The notes below the pieces were generated by a model. That model was not told the DNA's origin. It ran no database searches and was given only the letters and a program-made list of their open reading frames with translations. DNA of 64,000 nucleotides, from the NCBI GenBank assembly GCA_029062165.1, contig JAIDQQ010000023.1, positions 543,889 to 607,888 on the forward strand, given 5' to 3'. This DNA is from Ruminococcus sp. (GTDB lineage Bacteria; Bacillota; Clostridia; Oscillospirales; Ruminococcaceae). The position numbers were made by a program, and so were the translations under genes. Shown in pieces: positions 43,606 through 54,477 of this stretch (the first letter of the stretch is position 1; every line of letters begins with the position of its first letter).

Positions 43606-45373
43606 TAATATGAAAGGTCTTAAACGTACACACTATTGCGGTGACGTTACTGAAACAGGTCAGGAAGTTGTTGTAGGCGGATTCGTCGACAGGATAAGAA
43701 ACAAAGGCGGAGTTATTTTCATAGTCCTCCGTGACAGAACCGGTATAGTCCAGTTGCTTTTCAATGATAAGTCTGACCCTGAAATTTTTGAAAAAGCTTC
43801 GTCATGTAGGGGTGAGTACGTCCTTATGGCGAAAGGTAAGGTAGTAGAGCGTGAAAGCAAGAACTACAAGATAAAAACCGGTCTCGTCGAGATTTTCGTT
43901 GACGATTTACGCATACTCGCAAAGGCTCAGACACCACCGTTTGAAATAGTAAGCGATTCCAACGTAAACGAAGAATTACGCCTGAAATATCGCTATCTTG
44001 ATTTACGTCGAGAACCTTTACAGAAAAATATCATAATGCGTCACGAGATAGCGAAAGTCACAAGAGAGTACTTCTATGAAAACGGCTTCCTTGAAATAGA
44101 AACTCCCATGATGATGAAATCCACTCCGGAGGGTGCAAGGGATTATCTCGTACCGTCAAGAGTACATCAGGGAAAATTTTACGCATTACCGCAGTCACCG
44201 CAGATATATAAGCAGTTGCTTATGATTTCCGGTTATGACAGGTATATACAACTTGCAAGATGTTTCCGTGACGAAGACTTACGAGCCGACAGACAGCCGG
44301 AATTTACGCAGATAGACCTTGAGATGTCATTTGTAGACGCCGAAGACATTCAGGAATGTGTTGAAGGTTTCGTACAGCGTGTATTTAAAGAGGTCATGGG
44401 CGTTGAAGTCCCAACACCATTGCCACGCCTTACTTTCGCCGACGCTATGAACCTTTACGGCACTGATAAGCCTGATACAAGATTTGGTTTTGAAATTCAG
44501 GATATTTCTGAAACAGTAAAAGATACCGATTTTGTAGTATTCCGTAACGCTCTCGACAATGGCGGTACAGTCCGTGCGATAAACGTCAAAAACGGAGCAG
44601 GTATTTATACCCGCAAGGAAATTGACAAACTCATTGAACACGCTAAGGGAATCGGTGCAAAAGGTCTCGCATACGTCCGTTGGGCTGACGAGCCGAACTG
44701 TTCGTTTAAGAAGTTCCTGAAAGACGGTGAACTTGAAACAATCTGTAATGCCGTCGGAGCTGAAAAGGGCGATTTAATCCTGATATGTGCCGATAAAAAT
44801 AAGACAGTCCTTTCAACGTTAGGTGCGATACGTCTTATATGTGCGAAGAGACTGAATGTTATTCCGGAAGATAAGTACAATTTCCTGTGGATTACGGAAA
44901 TGCCGTTCTTTGAGTACGACGAAGAAAGTAATACATGGGTTGCGTCTCATCACCCATTCACAATGCCTATGGAAGAATGCCTTGAATACCTCGATACTGA
45001 CCCTGCAAACGTACGTGCTAAGGCGTGGGATTTGGTACTGAACGGTACGGAACTTTCAAGCGGTTCAATGCGTATAACCGATTTCGAGTTACAACAGAAA
45101 ATGTTTTCTGCCCTCGGCATGACCGACGAAGAAATTAAAGCTAAATTCGGCTTCCTCGTCGACGCCTATCGTTACGGCGCACCGCCACATGGTGGAATGG
45201 GTATCGGTCTTGACCGTCTCGCAATGATTATGTGTAAAGCCGATAGTTTACGAGATGTTACGGCATTCCCGAAAGTCCAGAATGCAAGCGAATTAATGTC
45301 TGAATGTCCGTCCACCGTGGACACCGAAAGCCTTGACGTACTCGGAATAAAAGTCGATATTCCGGAAGACTGA
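43598..45373 (+). CDS. aspS: aspartyl-tRNA synthetase, bacterial type
   Basis: This class II synthetase (591 aa) has an N-terminal OB-fold (GGFVDRIRNKGGVIFIVLRDRTG), motif 2 FRDEDLRADRQPEFTQIDLEMSF, the bacterial GAD insertion (about 290-410) and motif 3 GLDRLAMIM. The second ATG (43598, MADNMKG) is 8 nt after GGAGG; the first is only 2 nt from it. It overlaps hisS by 8 nt. With bacterial-type AspRS it may also charge tRNA-Asn if the organism uses the indirect Asn route; not decidable here. Confidence 0.95.
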   Translation: MADNMKGLKRTHYCGDVTETGQEVVVGGFVDRIRNKGGVIFIVLRDRTGIVQLLFNDKSDPEIFEKASSCRGEYVLMAKGKVVERESKNYKIKTGLVEIFVDDLRILAKAQTPPFEIVSDSNVNEELRLKYRYLDLRREPLQKNIIMRHEIAKVTREYFYENGFLEIETPMMMKSTPEGARDYLVPSRVHQGKFYALPQSPQIYKQLLMISGYDRYIQLARCFRDEDLRADRQPEFTQIDLEMSFVDAEDIQECVEGFVQRVFKEVMGVEVPTPLPRLTFADAMNLYGTDKPDTRFGFEIQDISETVKDTDFVVFRNALDNGGTVRAINVKNGAGIYTRKEIDKLIEHAKGIGAKGLAYVRWADEPNCSFKKFLKDGELETICNAVGAEKGDLILICADKNKTVLSTLGAIRLICAKRLNVIPEDKYNFLWITEMPFFEYDEESNTWVASHHPFTMPMEECLEYLDTDPANVRAKAWDLVLNGTELSSGSMRITDFELQQKMFSALGMTDEEIKAKFGFLVDAYRYGAPPHGGMGIGLDRLAMIMCKADSLRDVTAFPKVQNASELMSECPSTVDTESLDVLGIKVDIPED

Positions 45374-45403
45374 TTGTTAATAAAATTAAATTTCTGAAAA
45401 CTC

Positions 45404-45432
45404 TTGACAAAATGGAAATTACAGTATATAAT
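45404..45432 (+). promoter_or_regulatory. promoter of candidate small RNA
   Basis: TTGACA, 17 nt, TATAAT, 30 nt after the aspS stop and upstream of two hairpins that share a loop. Confidence 0.8.
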
Positions 45433-45438
45433 ATAAAT

Positions 45439-45585
45439 ATAATTAAACTTCATTCATAATTCGTAGTGGGAGCTGTCTGTAGGGATGGCTCCTGTTGTGT
45501 TTTGTTGCATAATTCTTGTAAAAATATCAATAATGTTCAATGGGGAGCTGTCTGTAGAAGTATGCTCCCCTTATATTTTCCGGAA
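45439..45585 (+). ncRNA. candidate small RNA with two hairpins sharing the loop TGTCTGTAG
   Basis: After its own promoter, hairpin 1 (GGGAGC / GCTCCT, about 45467-45492) and hairpin 2 (GGGGAGC / GCTCCCC, about 45543-45571) both carry GGGAGCTGTCTGTAG at the 5' side. Hairpin 2 runs into TTATATTTT, so it can end transcription. The V-ATPase operon has a separate promoter at 45622. This makes an independent RNA of about 145 nt likely. It could alternatively be a leader whose readthrough adds to V-ATPase expression (for example an ion-sensing element). I recognise no known family. The track ORF at 45466 here has no ribosome site of its own. Confidence 0.55.
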
Positions 45586-45621
45586 AAAATGAATGAAAGT
45601 CATTTTTTTGTTAAAAAACTA

Positions 45622-45650
45622 TTGACAAATAAAATTTTTTATGTTATAAT
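45622..45650 (+). promoter_or_regulatory. promoter of V-ATPase operon
   Basis: TTGACA, 17 nt, TATAAT, about 44 nt before the ntpF ATG. Confidence 0.85.
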
Positions 45651-45693
45651 AACAAAAATGACCGTCAGTCATTTTGTAAAAGGGGGTGAAACT

Positions 45694-46002
45694 ATGGCAT
45701 CTGAAGCAGTAAACAAAATTCTGACCGCTGAAAAACAATCGGCAGAAAAGACGGTACAGGCACGGCAGACCGCTGAAAACATCATCACGGAAGCGGAAAG
45801 ATATTCCGCTATAGCCGTACAGAAAAAAATCAGTCAGGCAATTTCTGAAATGGAAAAAATCCGCTCCGATTACGCTAAAAGACTTGAAGTCCATTCCAGA
45901 CAGTCCGATAGCAAATATGCCGGAAAATCGGCTGAAATACGTCTTAATGCTGAAAAAAATATGGAAAAAGCTGTCACGGCGGTGATTGAAGAATTTTTCT
46001 GA
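45694..46002 (+). CDS. ntpF: V-type ATPase peripheral-stalk subunit (G/H-like)
   Basis: This 102-aa protein is almost one long charged helix (ILTAEKQSAEKTVQARQTAENIITEAERY), as expected for the stalk subunit that pairs with subunit E. Start at 45694 follows AAAGGGGGTGAAA; the track start is far upstream in the leader. It is the first gene of nine in the order ntpFIKECGABD known from the Enterococcus hirae Na+ V-ATPase. Confidence 0.85.
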   Translation: MASEAVNKILTAEKQSAEKTVQARQTAENIITEAERYSAIAVQKKISQAISEMEKIRSDYAKRLEVHSRQSDSKYAGKSAEIRLNAEKNMEKAVTAVIEEFF

Positions 46003-46017
46003 AAGGGGTGATATAAA

Positions 46018-47970
46018 TTGTCAAAACTTAAAATGAAAAAAATTGAACTCATTGCACTTCTCACCGATAGCAAGAAAATTATCGAACTGTTACAGCGTCG
46101 GGGAGTAGTGGAAATATCCCGAAATAACGACGGTCTCAACGGTATGAACGTTACGGCGGTAATCGGTGAGTTTGAAAAATTCCGGAGCATATCCGCACAG
46201 GCACTCCACATACTCGACAGGTATTCTCCGGAAAAAAAATCGGTAACTGAAATTTTCGGGAGTAAGTCGGAAATTGAAGTCGATAACTTCGGAAGAGGTG
46301 CTATGCAACTCGAAAAAATTATGACCGTCGCCAATGAGATAGTAAAAAGCAGTCAGGAAATTGAGGAATCCGGAAAGAAAATCTCACAGCTTGACCTGAA
46401 ATGCGATATACTGAATCAGTGGGAAAATCTCGATATACCGCTGAATTTCAAGGGGACGGCTTCTACAACCGCTTTCATAGGGTCTGTACCGTCGGCAGTG
46501 GAAATCGGTGAAATTCTTCCGGAAAATACGTACACTGAAATAATATTCCGGTCAAAAGAAATAACCGATATTTTCGTACTAAGTCATAAGGAATCGGCTG
46601 ACGAAACAGAAGATATTCTCCGGAAAAACGGCTTTATTCCTCTTTCCGAAACGGAAAATAATACGCCTTCGGAAATAATAAAGTCCTGTATGGACGAACG
46701 GAATTTTTTAAGTAATCGCATTACGGAACTTGAAAAGCATATCGCCGGATTTTCCGAAAAGCGAAAAAGTCTTGAATTTGCCGTTGACTATCTTAGTATG
46801 CGCAAGGACAAATACAACGCCCTTAGCCTGCTCGGATTTACGGAAAATACTTTCGTACTGAATGGCTATATTCCGGAAAAATATACCGGAAAACTTAAAA
46901 AAGAACTCGAAAATAAATTCACGGTATATGTTGATTTTTCTGAACCGTCGGAAGATGATGACGTACCTGTACTTCTCGAAAACGGAAATTTTTCCGCACC
47001 TGTGGAGAGTATCACGAAAATGTACGCCATGCCCTCGGAATCGGACGTTGACCCTACACCGATAATGTCATTTTTTTACTATCTGTTTTTCGGTATGATG
47101 CTTTCTGATGCCGGTTACGGTCTTGTAATGCTTATCGCTACAACGATAATATTAAACAAATTCCGGCTTGACAGTACCATGAAAAAAACTATGACTATGT
47201 TCAGAAACTGCGGTATTTCTACGATAATATGGGGTGCGTTATTCGGAAGCTGGTTCGGCGATATAGTACAGGTAATCGGACGTGAATATTTCAACAGGGA
47301 AATCGGCAGTATAGCGTTATGGTTTCAACCGCTTGATGACCCTATCAAATTATTGCTGTATTCTTTCGGATTAGGTATACTTCACCTGTTCGTAGGCGTG
47401 GGAGTGTCGTTTAAGATGTCGTGGGATTCCGGAAAAAAACTCGACGCATTTCTTGATACCGTACCGGTATATCTGACAATTTTAGGCGTTGCACCGTTGG
47501 CAAGCAGTATACTTGTAAGTGTTCCGGCGATACTGAAAACCATAGGCACTTACATGATGATAGTCGGAGTAGTTTTAATAATTCTGACTTCCGGACGGTC
47601 TTCAAAGACAGTTTTCGGAAAATTTTTCGGCGGACTTTATGCCCTCTACAATACGGCTACCGGCTGGCTTAGCGATATTCTTTCATATTCCAGACTTCTT
47701 GCGTTAGGTCTCGCAACAGGAAGTATAGCCGGAGTTATTAATCTGATAGGTACTATGCCCGAAAATATGATAGTCAAGACGATACTTCTTGTGGTGGTCT
47801 TCATAATCGGACACACAGCGAATCTCGCTATAAATCTTTTAGGGGCGTATGTCCATACAGACAGGTTACAGTTTGTGGAATTGTTTTCAAAATTCTATAC
47901 AGGTGGCGGACGTGAGTTTAGACCGTTCACCGCAGATACAAAATACATTACTTTCAGGGAGGATAATTAA
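46018..47970 (+). CDS. ntpI: V-type ATPase subunit I (a subunit), TTG start
   Basis: This 650-aa protein has a soluble stalk-binding half (about 1-345, coiled) and a membrane half with seven or so helices. It carries the family motif PTPIMSFFYYLFFGMMLSDAGYG and LSYSRLLALGLATG, where the Arg that faces the rotor lies. It forms the ion half-channels. The start is a TTG 8 nt after GGGGTGAT. The gene is 15 nt after ntpF. Confidence 0.93.
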   Translation: MSKLKMKKIELIALLTDSKKIIELLQRRGVVEISRNNDGLNGMNVTAVIGEFEKFRSISAQALHILDRYSPEKKSVTEIFGSKSEIEVDNFGRGAMQLEKIMTVANEIVKSSQEIEESGKKISQLDLKCDILNQWENLDIPLNFKGTASTTAFIGSVPSAVEIGEILPENTYTEIIFRSKEITDIFVLSHKESADETEDILRKNGFIPLSETENNTPSEIIKSCMDERNFLSNRITELEKHIAGFSEKRKSLEFAVDYLSMRKDKYNALSLLGFTENTFVLNGYIPEKYTGKLKKELENKFTVYVDFSEPSEDDDVPVLLENGNFSAPVESITKMYAMPSESDVDPTPIMSFFYYLFFGMMLSDAGYGLVMLIATTIILNKFRLDSTMKKTMTMFRNCGISTIIWGALFGSWFGDIVQVIGREYFNREIGSIALWFQPLDDPIKLLLYSFGLGILHLFVGVGVSFKMSWDSGKKLDAFLDTVPVYLTILGVAPLASSILVSVPAILKTIGTYMMIVGVVLIILTSGRSSKTVFGKFFGGLYALYNTATGWLSDILSYSRLLALGLATGSIAGVINLIGTMPENMIVKTILLVVVFIIGHTANLAINLLGAYVHTDRLQFVELFSKFYTGGGREFRPFTADTKYITFREDN

Positions 47971-47972
47971 TT

Positions 47973-48449
47973 ATGAACAGTATGGGTTTAGCACTGGCAA
48001 TCATAGGAGCATCTATTTCAGCACTTCTTGCCGGAATAGGTTCGGCAAAAGGCGTAGGATTAGTCGGAGAGGCTGCCGCAGGTGTGGTCTCCGTTGACCC
48101 CGATAAATTCAGTAAGGTACTTGTTCTTCAACTCCTGCCAGGTACACAGGGTCTTTATGGACTTCTTACGGCAATTTTAATGTTAAGTCGCATAGGAGTT
48201 ATAGGTGGTAATGCCGTGGAACTCTCAACGGCACAGGGATTAATGTTCTTAGGGGCTTCGCTTCCGATAGCTATAGTAGGTTTGTTTTCTGGCATAGCAC
48301 AGGGACGTTCCGCCGCTGCCGGTGTAGGCATTACGGCACGTAAACCTGAACACAACGGAAAAGCAATCATAATGGCGGCAATGGTTGAAACTTATGCAAT
48401 TTTAGCATTACTTGTATCAATACTTCTGATTTATAATATAGCAATCTGA
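47973..48449 (+). CDS. ntpK: V-type ATPase rotor ring subunit K, Na+-type residues
   Basis: This 158-aa, four-helix duplicated proteolipid has the motif LQLLPGTQGLYG (Leu, Thr, Gln ligands), the Gln of SGIAQGRSAAAG and the Glu of MVETYAIL. These match the five residues that hold Na+ in E. hirae NtpK. Only the second hairpin carries the acidic residue, giving the usual one site per subunit. GGGAGG precedes the ATG. The ion preference is inferred from residue match. Confidence 0.93.
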   Translation: MNSMGLALAIIGASISALLAGIGSAKGVGLVGEAAAGVVSVDPDKFSKVLVLQLLPGTQGLYGLLTAILMLSRIGVIGGNAVELSTAQGLMFLGASLPIAIVGLFSGIAQGRSAAAGVGITARKPEHNGKAIIMAAMVETYAILALLVSILLIYNIAI

Positions 48450-48461
48450 GGGGGTGCGGAG

Positions 48462-49049
48462 ATGTCAGGAATTGACAGTATTCTGAATGTAATTGAAAGT
48501 CAGCAGAAACAGACGGAAATAAATATTATCCGTACCGCACAGGAAAAAGCGTCAGCTATCGAAGCCGACGGAGACCAGAAAGCCGAAACAGCTTACAACG
48601 ATTATATGAAAAAATCCCTCATTAAAGCCGAAACTGATTTCCGGAATGCCTGTAACTCCGTAGACGCCGGAAACCGTCGTAAGATACTTGAATGTAAGGT
48701 TGAAATAATAAATAATACAATAGAAAATATTATAACCCGTCTTGAAAGTCTTCCGGACGGAGAATACTTCAACATGATTTTAAGACTTGTACGGAAAAAA
48801 CTTCACGACGGAGCAGGCGAAATGTTTTTCAGTAAAAAAGACCTTGAAAGACTTCCGGACGATTTTCAGGGAAAAATTTCTGAAATTTCATGTAATAAAG
48901 TAAGAATATCGGATATTCCGGTGGATATTGATAACGGCTTCATACTGAAATACGGTCTTGTATCCGAAAACTGTACGTTCAGGGAGATAATAGAATCCGG
49001 AAACGACAGAATCAGGGATATTCTCGCCGGTATACTGTTTGGTGGGTGA
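48462..49049 (+). CDS. ntpE: V-type ATPase subunit E
   Basis: This 195-aa peripheral stalk protein has an N-terminal long helix (ESQQKQTEINIIRTAQEKASAIEADG) and a C-terminal globular part ending DNGFILKYGLVSENCTFREII, the family ending. GGGGGTGCGGAG lies before the ATG. It follows ntpK by 12 nt. Confidence 0.9.
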   Translation: MSGIDSILNVIESQQKQTEINIIRTAQEKASAIEADGDQKAETAYNDYMKKSLIKAETDFRNACNSVDAGNRRKILECKVEIINNTIENIITRLESLPDGEYFNMILRLVRKKLHDGAGEMFFSKKDLERLPDDFQGKISEISCNKVRISDIPVDIDNGFILKYGLVSENCTFREIIESGNDRIRDILAGILFGG

Positions 49050-49053
49050 TGTT

Positions 49054-49980
49054 ATGGGTATAGATTATGCAAGTGCCGTGGCGGTAGTCAGGACTTTGGA
49101 AAATTCGCTTTTCACAAAGAACGATTTGGAACAGCTTATTAACGCCCATGACAGTAATGAATCTGAAACGCTTATAAACTCGAAAAATGCCGGTACTCTT
49201 TTGGAAGTATGGGAGATGCTCCGGACTTTCGCCCCCGACAGTAAAGAACTTGAAATACTTCTTTACAGAAACGATTTCCATAATCTGAAGGCTGTCCTGA
49301 AAGCAATGGTTTCCGGACGTGAACCTGAAAATTATTTAATTGAACCGTCGAATATAAAAGCCGGTATTTTAAAGGAAGCGTTCCGGACTAAAGATTTCGA
49401 CTTACTGCCGGAATATATCCGTGAGACCGCCACAAACGCTTACGGAATTATAACTACTTCCCTTGATGGTCAGCTTGTCGATTCGTTTATTGATACGGAC
49501 TGTCTTAAAGCTATGCGGAAATCGGCTGACAGTACCGGTAATGATTTCATGCGGAAATACGTTGATTTAATTACGGTCTGTGCCGATATTAAAACGGCTT
49601 ACCGGTGCAGTAAAATGAATAAACAAAGAGATTTCCTTGAAACTGCCATATGCGGAAGTCCGGAACTTGATAAGGAATCAATTATAAGAGCAACTCTCGG
49701 CGGTACGGAAAATTTACTGTCTTTTCTTGACAGTACGTCATATGCGGAACTCTCCGGACTGCTGAAAGAAAATCCGGCAAAGTTTGAAAAACGTTGCGAC
49801 GACTTAATTACGGAACAGGCACAGACAGCACGTTTCAAGGCTTTCGGGATAGAACCCCTTATAGCCTACTATATCGCAAAAGAGGCGGAAATTAAAAATA
49901 TCCGGATAATAACGGTCTGTCGGGAATGCGGTGCGGACAGGGAAACTATTACGGAAAGGCTTAGGGATTTATATGTATAA
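49054..49980 (+). CDS. ntpC: V-type ATPase subunit C (d-like central socket)
   Basis: This 308-aa helical protein has the family pattern of three repeats (NDFHNLKAVLKAMVSG, FMRKYVDLITVCADIKTAYRC, EPLIAYYIAKEAEIKNIRII). It caps the K ring and links it to the central shaft. The ATG at 49054 (MGIDYASAV) is preferred over the GTG in the track, with GGTGGGTGAT upstream. It ends overlapping ntpG by 8 nt. Confidence 0.9.
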   Translation: MGIDYASAVAVVRTLENSLFTKNDLEQLINAHDSNESETLINSKNAGTLLEVWEMLRTFAPDSKELEILLYRNDFHNLKAVLKAMVSGREPENYLIEPSNIKAGILKEAFRTKDFDLLPEYIRETATNAYGIITTSLDGQLVDSFIDTDCLKAMRKSADSTGNDFMRKYVDLITVCADIKTAYRCSKMNKQRDFLETAICGSPELDKESIIRATLGGTENLLSFLDSTSYAELSGLLKENPAKFEKRCDDLITEQAQTARFKAFGIEPLIAYYIAKEAEIKNIRIITVCRECGADRETITERLRDLYV

Positions 49981-50287
49981 AGTAGCAGTAATCGGCGACA
50001 GTGCCAGTGTATCGGGTTTTGCGTCGTTAGGACTTTCGGTTTTCTGTGAGACAGAACCGGATAAAGTTTCGGGAATAATAAAACGTCTTGCGGAAAACGA
50101 TTTTGCCGTGATATACGTCACTGAACCGGTGGCTGTCACGGTCAGCGGGACGATAGAAAAATATAAAAAAAATCAGTTGCCGTCAATAGTACTTATTCCG
50201 GCTATACGTGGCAATACCGGAGAGGGTATGCGGTCACTTCATGAGGCTGTAGAAAAAGCAGTCGGCACTGATATTCTTAAGAATTGA
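49973..50287 (+). CDS. ntpG: V-type ATPase subunit F (central stalk)
   Basis: This 104-aa Rossmann-like protein has [21 protein letters not shown] at its start and the [11 protein letters not shown] strand near the C-terminus. It binds subunit D in the rotating shaft. The start at 49973 overlaps the ntpC stop by 8 nt, with AGGGA before it; the track start is 14 codons early. The E. hirae name NtpG is used. Confidence 0.9.
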
Positions 50288-50298
50288 GGCGTTTTTTT

Positions 50299-52056
50299 AT
50301 GGGAAAAATAGTTAAAATTTCAGGACCTCTTGTGGTTGCGGACGGTATGCGGGATTCAAATATGTTCGATGTCGTAAGGGTGAGTAATCAGAAACTTATC
50401 GGCGAGATTATCGAAATGCACGGCGACAGGGCTTCCATACAGGTTTACGAGGAAACCGCCGGACTTGGTACAGGTGAACCGGTTATTTCGACAGGCGAAC
50501 CTATGAGTGTTGAATTAGGACCGGGGCTGATAGGCAGTATTTTTGACGGCATACAGCGTCCGCTTGACGATATTAAAAAAATATGCGGTAATTCCCTGAA
50601 ACGTGGTGTAGATGTACCGTCTCTTAAACGTGACAGATTATGGAATTTCACCCCGACTGTCAGTGTCGGCGATACCGTAATCAGTGGCGATATTATCGGG
50701 ACTGTACCGGAAACTGATATTGTACTTCACAAAATACTTGTACCAAATGGAATAAGCGGAACGGTTAAAAAAATTACCGCCGGTGAATTTCATGTAGATG
50801 ACGTTGTATGCGTAATTGATACCGGTAAAGGCGAATATAATCTGACGTTGTTTCAGAAATGGGCGGTACGTCGTGGCAGACCCTACAGGAAAAAACTTTC
50901 GCCGGATATGCCACTTGTGACAGGTCAGCGAGTTGTTGACTGTCTTTTCCCGATTGCCAAAGGCGGTGTTGCGTCTATACCAGGACCTTTCGGAAGCGGA
51001 AAGACCGTCACACAACATCAGCTTGCGAAGTGGGCATCTGCGGATATAATTGTGTATATCGGTTGCGGTGAACGTGGTAACGAAATGACCGACGTTCTGA
51101 ACGAATTTCCGGAACTCATTGACCCACGTACAAATAAATCACTCATGGAAAGAACTGTTTTAATAGCAAATACTTCCGATATGCCGGTTTCAGCACGTGA
51201 AGCGTCTGTATATACCGGTATAACCATAGCCGAATATTATCGTGATATGGGCTATTCCGTGGCACTTATGGCGGATTCTACTTCACGGTGGGCGGAGGCT
51301 CTCCGTGAGATGTCCGGACGTCTCGAAGAAATGCCAGGTGATGAGGGTTATCCGGCGTATTTAGGGAGCAGGCTGGCACAGTTTTACGAACGTGCCGGAC
51401 GTGTCATTTCAAACGGTACGGACGGAAGAGAAGGTACATTATCGGTAATAGGTGCGGTATCGCCAGCCGGTGGCGACATTTCTGAACCGGTCACACAGGC
51501 GACGTTGAGAATTGTTAAAGTTTTCTGGGGACTTGATTCAAACCTCGCATATCAGAGACATTTTCCGGCTATAAACTGGCTTACGAGTTATTCGCTTTAC
51601 GTCGATTCTCTTGCGGACTGGTATAATAATAACGTCTCGACGGACTGGAATAAATTACGTTCAAGATTTATGGAGATACTTCACGAAGAAGAAGAACTAA
51701 AGGAAATAGTGAAATTAATCGGTATGGACGCACTTTCTGCCGGTGACCGTATCAAAATGGAAACAGCACGTTCCATACGTGAGGACTTCTTACACCAGCT
51801 TGCATTCCACGAAGTCGACACTTATACAAGCCTTACAAAGCAGTTGTATATGATGAGATTAATACTGACGTTTCACGACAAGGCAACGGAAGCTGTCATT
51901 AAGGGTGCGGACGTAGAGGAAATTTCCGTACTGCCTGTGCGTGAAAAAATAGGACGTTTCAAGTACGTACCGGAAGAAAAGACCGCCGAAGAATATGAAA
52001 AAATTTTACTTGAAATATCGGCAGAAATCAATCAGCTTGTGAGCAGGGGGAATTAA
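50299..52056 (+). CDS. ntpA: V-type ATPase catalytic subunit A
   Basis: This 585-aa catalytic subunit has the P-loop GPFGSGKTV, the catalytic Glu in [15 protein letters not shown], and the A-type bulge domain (about 110-190). [44 protein letters not shown] is present as in the family. The start MGKIVKISG (50299) follows GAGGCG. It uses ATP to pump ions, or the reverse. Confidence 0.96.
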
Positions 52057-52059
52057 TTA

Positions 52060-53424
52060 ATGTCAAGAGAATACAGAACTATCGAGGAAGTAACAGGACC
52101 TTTACTTCTTGTAAAGGACGTCGAGGGGGCAAAATATGGCGAACTCGCTGAAATACGTCTGAAAAACGGCGAAAAAAGACGTTGCCGTGTACTTGAAGTA
52201 GACGGAACTAATGTACTCGTACAGCTTTTTGAGAACTCCGCCGGAATAAATCTACAGGAAAGCAGTGTTGTATTTTCGGGTCACCAGATGGAACTGGGCG
52301 TTTCCGAAGATATGTTAGGAAGAGTTTTTGACGGTCTCGGCAGACCTATTGACGACGGTGCGGAAATAATTCCGGAAATGCGTATGGACGTAAACGGACT
52401 TCCAATGAATCCGGTGGCAAGACGTTATCCGCAGGAATTTATTCAGACAGGTGTTTCCGCTATAGACGGTCTGAACACTCTCGTAAGAGGTCAGAAATTA
52501 CCGATATTTTCGGCAAGCGGTCTGCCTCATGCACAGTTTGCCTCACAGATAGCCCGACAAGCTAAAGTACGTGGTACTGACGAGCCGTTTGCGGTAGTTT
52601 TCGGGGCTATGGGAATAACTTTCGAGGAATCTGAATATTTCATTGAAAGTTTCCGGAGTACTGGTGCTATCGACAGGACGGTACTTTTCATAAATCTTGC
52701 AAGCGATTCGGCAATAGAACGTATTGCCACACCTAAAATGGCTCTCACGACGGCGGAATACCTTGCATTTGAAAAGGGTATGCACGTACTTGTAATCCTG
52801 ACCGACATCACCAATTATGCAGATGCACTCCGTGAAATATCGTCGGCACGTAAGGAAGTACCAGGACGTAGAGGTTACCCTGGATATATGTATACTGACC
52901 TCGCAACCATTTACGAGAGAGCAGGCAGACAGGCTGACAAAGACGGTAGTATAACTATGATACCCATTCTGACCATGCCCGAAGACGATAAAACACATCC
53001 TATCCCCGATTTGACCGGCTATATTACCGAAGGTCAGATTATACTTTCAAGAGAACTGTATCGAAAGGGTATAACTCCGCCTGTAGATGTTCTGCCATCG
53101 CTGTCGAGACTTAAGGACAAGGGCATAGGTAAAGGACGTACCCGTGAAGACCATTCCGACACTATGAATCAGTTATTTTCGGCGTACGCTCGTGGAAAAG
53201 ATGCTAAGGAATTAATGGTAGTACTCGGAGAATCCGCCCTCACTCCTACGGACTTATTATACGCTAAATTCGCTGAAGAGTTTGAAAAACGTTACGTATC
53301 GCAGGGTTTCGATAATGACCGTACTATTGAAGATACACTTTCAGTAGGGTGGGAACTTCTAAGAATGTTGCCGAAAAGTGAACTCCGGAGAATCAGGGAA
53401 GAATATATCGAAAAGTACTATTAA
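52060..53424 (+). CDS. ntpB: V-type ATPase regulatory subunit B
   Basis: This 454-aa non-catalytic subunit lacks a P-loop ([19 protein letters not shown] in its place). It keeps [29 protein letters not shown] and the Arg finger region [17 protein letters not shown]. It alternates with A in the head. It starts 3 nt after ntpA. Behind it the compact operon is broken by a 408-nt low-complexity gap before ntpD. Confidence 0.96.
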
Positions 53425-53832
53425 TTCATAATAATTATGAATTGTTATGTGACAGTCAGATGACATTAAGAATACCGCATTATTACGGCATAAACTGACA
53501 TCAGGTATCATTCAGGTGACAGGCATATGACATTCAACCGACAGTCAGATGACAGTCAGGTGACAACAATGAAACAAAGATAAACAAAGCAACAATATAT
53601 ATATACCTGCTATTTTGCGTATCGCCTGTGAGATTAGCACGAACGTGAACGAACGTACACGAACGTTAACGAACGCTAACGAATGCTAACAAACGTTTAC
53701 GTTGGCTACTAATACAAATACAAATATAAATACAAGTACAAATATAAATACAAGTACAAATATAAATACAAATACAATTTATAATTCTTAATTCATAATT
53801 TTCAATTATGAATTGAAAGTGTGGTGATTTTT
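53425..53832. repeat. 408-nt low-complexity region inside the V-ATPase operon
   Basis: Three periodic tracts fill the gap. The first (about 53451-53570) repeats GACAGTCAGATGACA-like units, with exact copies at 53451 and 53540. The second (about 53637-53702) repeats six-nt AACGNN units (GAACGT, TAACGA). The third (about 53711-53778) repeats ATACAA and ATATAA. AT-rich dispersed repeats flank both ends. There is no ORF and no convincing promoter or terminator. Confidence 0.85.
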
Positions 53833-54477
53833 TTGTCAAGACTTAACGTCAACCCTACACGTATGGAGTTAAACAAACTCAAAAAGAAACTACAGTCCGC
53901 ACGACGTGGACATAAACTCCTGAAAGACAAACGTGACGAACTTATGCGACAGTTCATGATTCTGATAAGGGAAAACAACCAGCTCCGTAAGGACGTGGAG
54001 CAGGCTATTACAGAAGCTGACAGATATATGTCAGTAGCGGGTTCTGTAATGCAGAGGGAAATTCTCGAAACTGCTTTACTGTTACCGAAACAGGAAGTTG
54101 AAATAGAAGTCCTTACAAAAAACGTAATGAGTGTAAATGTTCCGGAGTTCCGCACCTTTTACAAATCGGATGATAAAAACTTCTTTTCATACGGTACGGC
54201 TTTCACGTCGACTGACCTTGACGGTGCTGTATGTGCATTAAGTGAGGTTTTCCCGAAAATGATACGTCTTGCGGAAGTCGAGAAGACCTGTCAGCTTATG
54301 GCGGACGAGATTGAAAAAACACGTCGTCGTGTGAACGCACTTGAATATATCATGATTCCCGATTACGAGGAGACTATCAGATACATTACCATGAAACTTT
54401 CCGAAAATGAACGGAATACAATAACATCCCTCATGAAAGTGAAAGACATGGTACTGAAACAGAAGTACAATTATTAA
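53833..54477 (+). CDS. ntpD: V-type ATPase subunit D (central shaft), TTG start
   Basis: This 214-aa protein has two long helices forming the rotor shaft: VNPTRMELNKLKKKLQSARRGHKLLKDKRDEL at the start, TRRRVNALEYIMIPDYEETIRYI near the end. The start is a TTG at 53833 after GTGGTGAT and a T-run; the GTG used by the track overlaps that site. It is separated from ntpB by the low-complexity gap, unlike the normal tight spacing. It may thus be made at a different level from the other subunits. Confidence 0.92.
   Translation: MSRLNVNPTRMELNKLKKKLQSARRGHKLLKDKRDELMRQFMILIRENNQLRKDVEQAITEADRYMSVAGSVMQREILETALLLPKQEVEIEVLTKNVMSVNVPEFRTFYKSDDKNFFSYGTAFTSTDLDGAVCALSEVFPKMIRLAEVEKTCQLMADEIEKTRRRVNALEYIMIPDYEETIRYITMKLSENERNTITSLMKVKDMVLKQKYNY

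Follow-up and report, generated by a model that had tools for sequence, protein, structure and literature searches.

Transcription attenuators that are read by a protein or by another RNA are known from the RAT/LicT, HutP, TRAP and PyrR leaders. The element described here resembles them in that a terminator-like leader hairpin carries a strictly conserved sequence in and beside it and adjoins one operon, but we found no alternative antiterminator fold, no known recognition sequence and no regulator gene in the operon. In enterococci and clostridia, the Na+-I riboswitch (DUF1646 motif) is found in front of V-ATPase genes (PMC9337991). Our locus shares with it the leader position before V-type ATPase genes, the link to a terminator (a putative one in our case) and a Na+-type pump, but differs in sequence and architecture; the element here is far smaller and has one hairpin and one conserved strand. 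Rli51 is reported to be a 5′-UTR attenuator that also acts as a small RNA (sRNA; PMC11394854); the two have in common a short premature leader transcript before a regulated gene, which is predicted in our case, although no sequence relation between them is known.

We analysed a 64,000-nt stretch of Ruminococcus DNA (the window). An initial annotation of the window had called the element an unrecognised stand-alone RNA and had suggested an Rfam scan and a covariance search in related genomes. The first half of that description held: Rfam 15 gave no match at the gathering cut-off for the window or for 23 related loci. At E values of up to 10, matches in 45374-45700 were at chance level and did not include Na+-I (DUF1646). 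We found no paper printing the sequence and no relevant transcript study of Ruminococcus.

Promoters, hairpins and operators before the V-ATPase genes

The element lies downstream of aspS, whose stop codon is at 45373, in the intergenic region that ends at 45694 with the first start codon of the V-ATPase operon; all features given below are on the + strand. Promoter 1 (TTGACA-17-TATAAT, 45404-45432) matches the sigma-70-type consensus at 12/12 positions and starts 30 nt after aspS, as annotated, with the leader RNA predicted to begin at about 45439. Hairpin 1 (45462-45498; covariance model R1, E 1.7e-14) consists of the 5′ arm GGGAGC (45468-45473), the loop UGUCUGUAGGGAUG (45474-45487) and the 3′ arm GCUCC (45488-45492), with weaker outer pairs added to the main stem. 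Hairpin 2, a tandem copy (45542-45570; model match, E 3.5e-11), consists of the 5′ arm GGGGAGC (45542-45548), the loop UGUCUGUAGAAGUAU and the 3′ arm GCUCCCC (45564-45570). T-rich tails follow both hairpins, an interrupted, terminator-like U tract at 45493-45503, so classed by consensus scan and by the composition of 76 tails, and TTATATTTT at 45571-45579. The annotation had assigned a terminator-like tail to the second hairpin; the T-rich tail is present there, but the consensus scan flagged hairpin 1 and not hairpin 2. A -10-like CATAAT, with no -35 box, lies at 45508-45513, about 28 nt upstream of GGGGAGC.

Both hairpins contain GGGAGCUGUCUGUAG, and the direct repeat GGGAGCTGTCTGTAG spans 45468-45482 and 45543-45557, which bears out the shared 5′ sequence noted earlier; UGUCUGUAG belongs to the loop and not to the stem. 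Each hairpin folded better than nearly all of its shuffles (z -4.3 and -3.5 for hairpins 1 and 2, respectively), and for the whole 147 nt (z -3.35) none of 200 shuffles folded equally well. The 2.72-Mb genome has exactly two copies of the 14-mer, both in this intergenic region. The repeat is far beyond chance, since genomes throughout the genus conserve its sequence at this position.

The V-ATPase operon, which is complete, has its own promoter after the hairpins, as the annotation had stated: promoter 2 (45622-45650) is a 12/12 consensus match with a TG extension. Two TetR-type operators are predicted around it, the palindrome AATGAATGAAAGTCATT upstream (45588-45604) and AATGACCGTCAGTCATT at the promoter 2 start (45657-45673). 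In the window and most of its relatives, this second promoter, placed after the hairpin, is flanked by TGAC-N5-GTCA palindromes. At another place in the genome, the same palindromes stand in three copies before a gene of the TetR family (G000:C51, L167; operators at about 1472-1575, gene at 1656-2267), which makes TetR control of promoter 2 probable. The arrangement suggests a TetR repressor that acts on promoter 2 and on its own gene, conserved across the genus.

The first V-ATPase gene (45694-46002) is an ntpG/H-like open reading frame of 102 aa that had no Pfam match and is the gene next after the hairpin in virtually every locus. Pfam matches and open reading frames placed the I, K, E, C, F, A, B and D subunits in the remaining operon (46018-54477), the match for E falling just below the cut-off; the same kind of inspection revealed no regulator gene adjoining or within the operon. 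NtpK retains LQLLPGTQGLYG and the VETYA segment, which hold the Na+ ligands, and is closest to the subunit K ring of the Enterococcus hirae V-type Na+-ATPase (2bl2; E 2e-44). The pump is therefore likely to be of the Na+ type, in agreement with the annotation.

Conservation in Ruminococcus and beyond

Searching for the exact 13-mer gave matches in 44 out of 99 related genomes; each of the 44 belongs to the window's genus, and none of 39 genomes of other genera had it. Nearly all intergenic copies formed the hairpin and lay directly before ntpG/H-ntpI; the few intragenic copies did not form it. The gene upstream of the hairpin varied among loci, and ntpG/I downstream was constant for the hairpin-forming copies. 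A covariance model built from 50 hairpins matched (E < 3e-8) in 93 out of 105 genus genomes with a V-ATPase, scored by V_ATPase_I, and in 0 out of 20 without one; the 93/105 figure is a tally of two tables, the E-values of the model are rough and many of the genomes are draft MAGs. GenBank hosts of the element are Ruminococcus, including R. flavefaciens FD-1, YAD2003 and SAb67. The hairpin is a genus-wide Ruminococcus element.

We looked at four of the 12 V-ATPase genomes without a match. One (G156) ends at a contig edge, in two (G125 and G011) a V-ATPase of the same lineage follows another kind of leader, and the fourth (G020) has an unrelated V-ATPase. About 80 nt before ntpG in G125 and G011 (loci L201/L202), a long stem, GUAUUAUUGU...ACAAUAAUAC, closes an inner UUGAAG...CUUCAA hairpin; this is apparently a second, unrelated type of V-ATPase leader RNA.

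Most loci have one hairpin. Tandem copies occur in a minority, and all tandem loci with enough flanking sequence adjoin aspS. The duplicated recognition loop, or tandem sensing, of the initial annotation is thus not the core feature, and local duplication is the best account of the tandem. In the window, the CATAAT without a -35 box looks like the remnant of a promoter that was duplicated along with the hairpin and then decayed.

The hairpin has 6-8 bp (GGGAGC...GCUCCC), lies about 22 nt after the predicted RNA start and contains 12 to 15 near-invariant letters; the -10 box and GGGAGC are about 28-31 nt apart in nearly all genus loci. Among 98 distinct hairpins, the 5′ strand GGGAGCUGUCUG-AG was invariant except for one base, with U, A or G at one loop position; the near-invariant 5′ arm and 5′ loop read GGGAGCUGUCUG-U-AG. 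The search pattern imposed part of this invariance but left the first G and the variable positions free. The 3′ side of the loop varied in letters and length, giving loops of 13-16 nt. At the three G/C stem pairs, we counted 273 G-C, 53 G-U and one mismatch; the G side never changed, 93.5% of stem cells were paired and 53 out of 54 changes were C to U opposite G. This last bias indicates that the helix is kept as RNA. The 5′ arm and 5′ loop are constrained as sequence as well, in keeping with the selection on stem top and loop proposed earlier. A loop sequence that stays invariant while the stem register and its surroundings change implies a specific partner.

The tails are T-rich, at least five T in 10 nt in 95% of 76 tails, but other letters break up the U tract (UUU-C/G-UGUUU), and termination may therefore be weak or may not occur at all. 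The leader before the main hairpin is variable and yielded no competing antiterminator fold, only a weak small hairpin. Its mean MFE was below that of shuffles (p 1.6e-4, from related and hence not independent sequences), clearly so only in some clades, and we regard a 5′ hairpin preceding the main one as tentative. Small, variable hairpins of this kind (CAGGA..UCCUG, CGGAA..UUCCG and UUGAA..UUCAA are examples) precede the main hairpin in some clades (L017, L023, L053, L058, L120, L162 and L166), often around a UGAAUA-like sequence.

Beyond the genus, loci from two other families of its order, L097 (f19) and L100/L101 (f17), have GGGAGCUGUCUGUAGG between a promoter and the start codon of the V-ATPase. 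L235 comes from a different order of the class, and its V-ATPase 5′ UTR reads GGGAGC-CA-GCUGUCUGUAG-AGGAUGC-GCUCCC-UUUUU, and AGCTGTCTGTAG in this leader is the sole copy in that genome. All of these copies lie directly before the V-ATPase start. The CA inserted between the stem and GCUGUCUGUAG in L235 indicates that loop sequence and stem are kept separately. In an ntpI tree, the motif-bearing V-ATPases of the order formed one clade, well apart from the motif-less V-ATPases sampled, which were best Pfam hits and an uneven sample. The majority of the order's V-ATPases lack the motif, and since near relatives without it exist (L208, L211 and L212), its presence is patchy. The leader of one of these, L208 (G358), has terminator-like hairpins, such as GAGAGC...GCUCUUUUU, which raises the possibility that this operon is often controlled by attenuation in its leader.

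Class-wide 14-mer matches outside the genus, with no V-ATPase nearby, were rejected as chance, and weak model matches (about 20-35 bits) were mostly ordinary terminators with the loop deleted. IMG/VR contained no copy of the element, leaving a viral origin unsupported.

A probable leader RNA and its alternatives

Eighteen loci from four bacterial families (16 listed loci, L100 and L235) have 25-67 nt between the end of the hairpin and the start codon, with no fitting second promoter in that stretch. The V-ATPase genes of these loci can be transcribed only through the hairpin. A leader element is therefore the reading that best covers all loci, and the stand-alone status given to the RNA in the initial annotation does not hold there. 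We consider it likely that the hairpin is a cis-acting leader RNA; that it works by attenuation is an even bet. Taken as a whole, we assign a probability of about 0.5 to the reading that this is a new leader RNA family of a Na+-type V-ATPase lineage, attenuator-like and with its loop read in trans.

Under this reading, the hairpin would be a leaky intrinsic terminator in the leader. A trans-acting factor, either a protein or another RNA, would read the invariant strand as the RNA leaves the polymerase and would change how often transcription stops there rather than reading through into the V-ATPase genes. In species of the window's type, which have two hairpins and a further promoter probably under TetR control, promoter 1 would mostly give a short RNA, plus some read-through.

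The main rival, compatible with the leader reading, is that the element could be a trans-acting sRNA of about 65-70 nt, made from promoter 1 and ended by the terminator hairpin, with the invariant loop as its pairing seed; its link to the V-ATPase would then be secondary, or it would be a 5′-UTR-derived sRNA. The perfect promoter, its short distance to a terminator-like hairpin, a contiguous invariant loop of seed length and the separate V-ATPase promoter of most loci all agree with such a role, and Rli51 is reported as a precedent for premature leader transcripts that act as sRNAs (PMC11394854). In the 18 single-promoter loci, however, the promoter before the hairpin is the sole V-ATPase promoter, so the RNA is not separate from the mRNA leader, and no complementary target stood out from composition within the V-ATPase operon. 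We therefore rate this role as unlikely, well behind the leader reading, although the short terminated product of a leader could itself be an sRNA. Two candidate pairings were rejected. The loop complement CAGACAG was enriched downstream in the operon only as much as other permutations (rank 13 out of 210), mostly in the ntpI codons for LTDSK, and complementarity to rRNA (from Escherichia coli) was within the shuffled range.

The remaining alternatives fit worse than a leader terminator read in trans. A riboswitch for Na+ or another ligand or ion, built on the hairpin, would suit the pump, which looks Na+-type, and would parallel the Na+-I (DUF1646) riboswitches before V-ATPase operons in enterococci and clostridia (PMC9337991). 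However, the element is a single small hairpin in which the conserved part is one contiguous strand; we saw no further conserved strand and no partner for a pseudoknot, and neither DUF1646 nor any other riboswitch matched 45374-45700 even at E 10. A single contiguous strand resembles a protein or RNA site more than a ligand pocket, and a sensing role of this kind seems improbable. A translational switch is slightly more doubtful still. In this scheme, the freed 3′ arm and U tail (GCUCCCUUU) would pair with the Shine-Dalgarno (SD) region, and formation of the hairpin would free the SD. Several to about ten pairs (-5 to -12 kcal/mol) are possible in the single-promoter loci, but pairing with a locus's own SD was no better than with the SDs of other loci (p 0.62), pointing to generic anti-SD complementarity only, and such a switch would be powerless on promoter 2 transcripts. 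A DNA operator downstream of the promoter, serving as a roadblock repressor site, would explain an inverted repeat at a fixed distance from the -10 box, but is the least probable of the three, given that the C to T arm changes opposite an invariant G (53/54) produce G-U pairs that matter only in RNA and that the conserved loop strand is not palindromic. A leader peptide was rejected, as in-frame starts occurred in 33, 24 and 22 of 82 leaders in the three frames, with no common frame.

Returning to the leader terminator read in trans, we put at slightly below even odds the specific proposal of a dedicated, previously undescribed recognition system, in which a protein or RNA of Ruminococcus and its relatives would read the 12-nt AGCUGUCUGUAG in the leader and thereby set how much of the Na+-type V-ATPase is made; this V-ATPase lineage would have kept the link across families and orders. 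The hairpins form a well-defined RNA family, absent from the catalogues, that is tightly tied to particular genes in a major genus of the gut and rumen. It suggests that Clostridia may have a second route, beside the Na+ riboswitch, for controlling the Na+-type V-ATPase.
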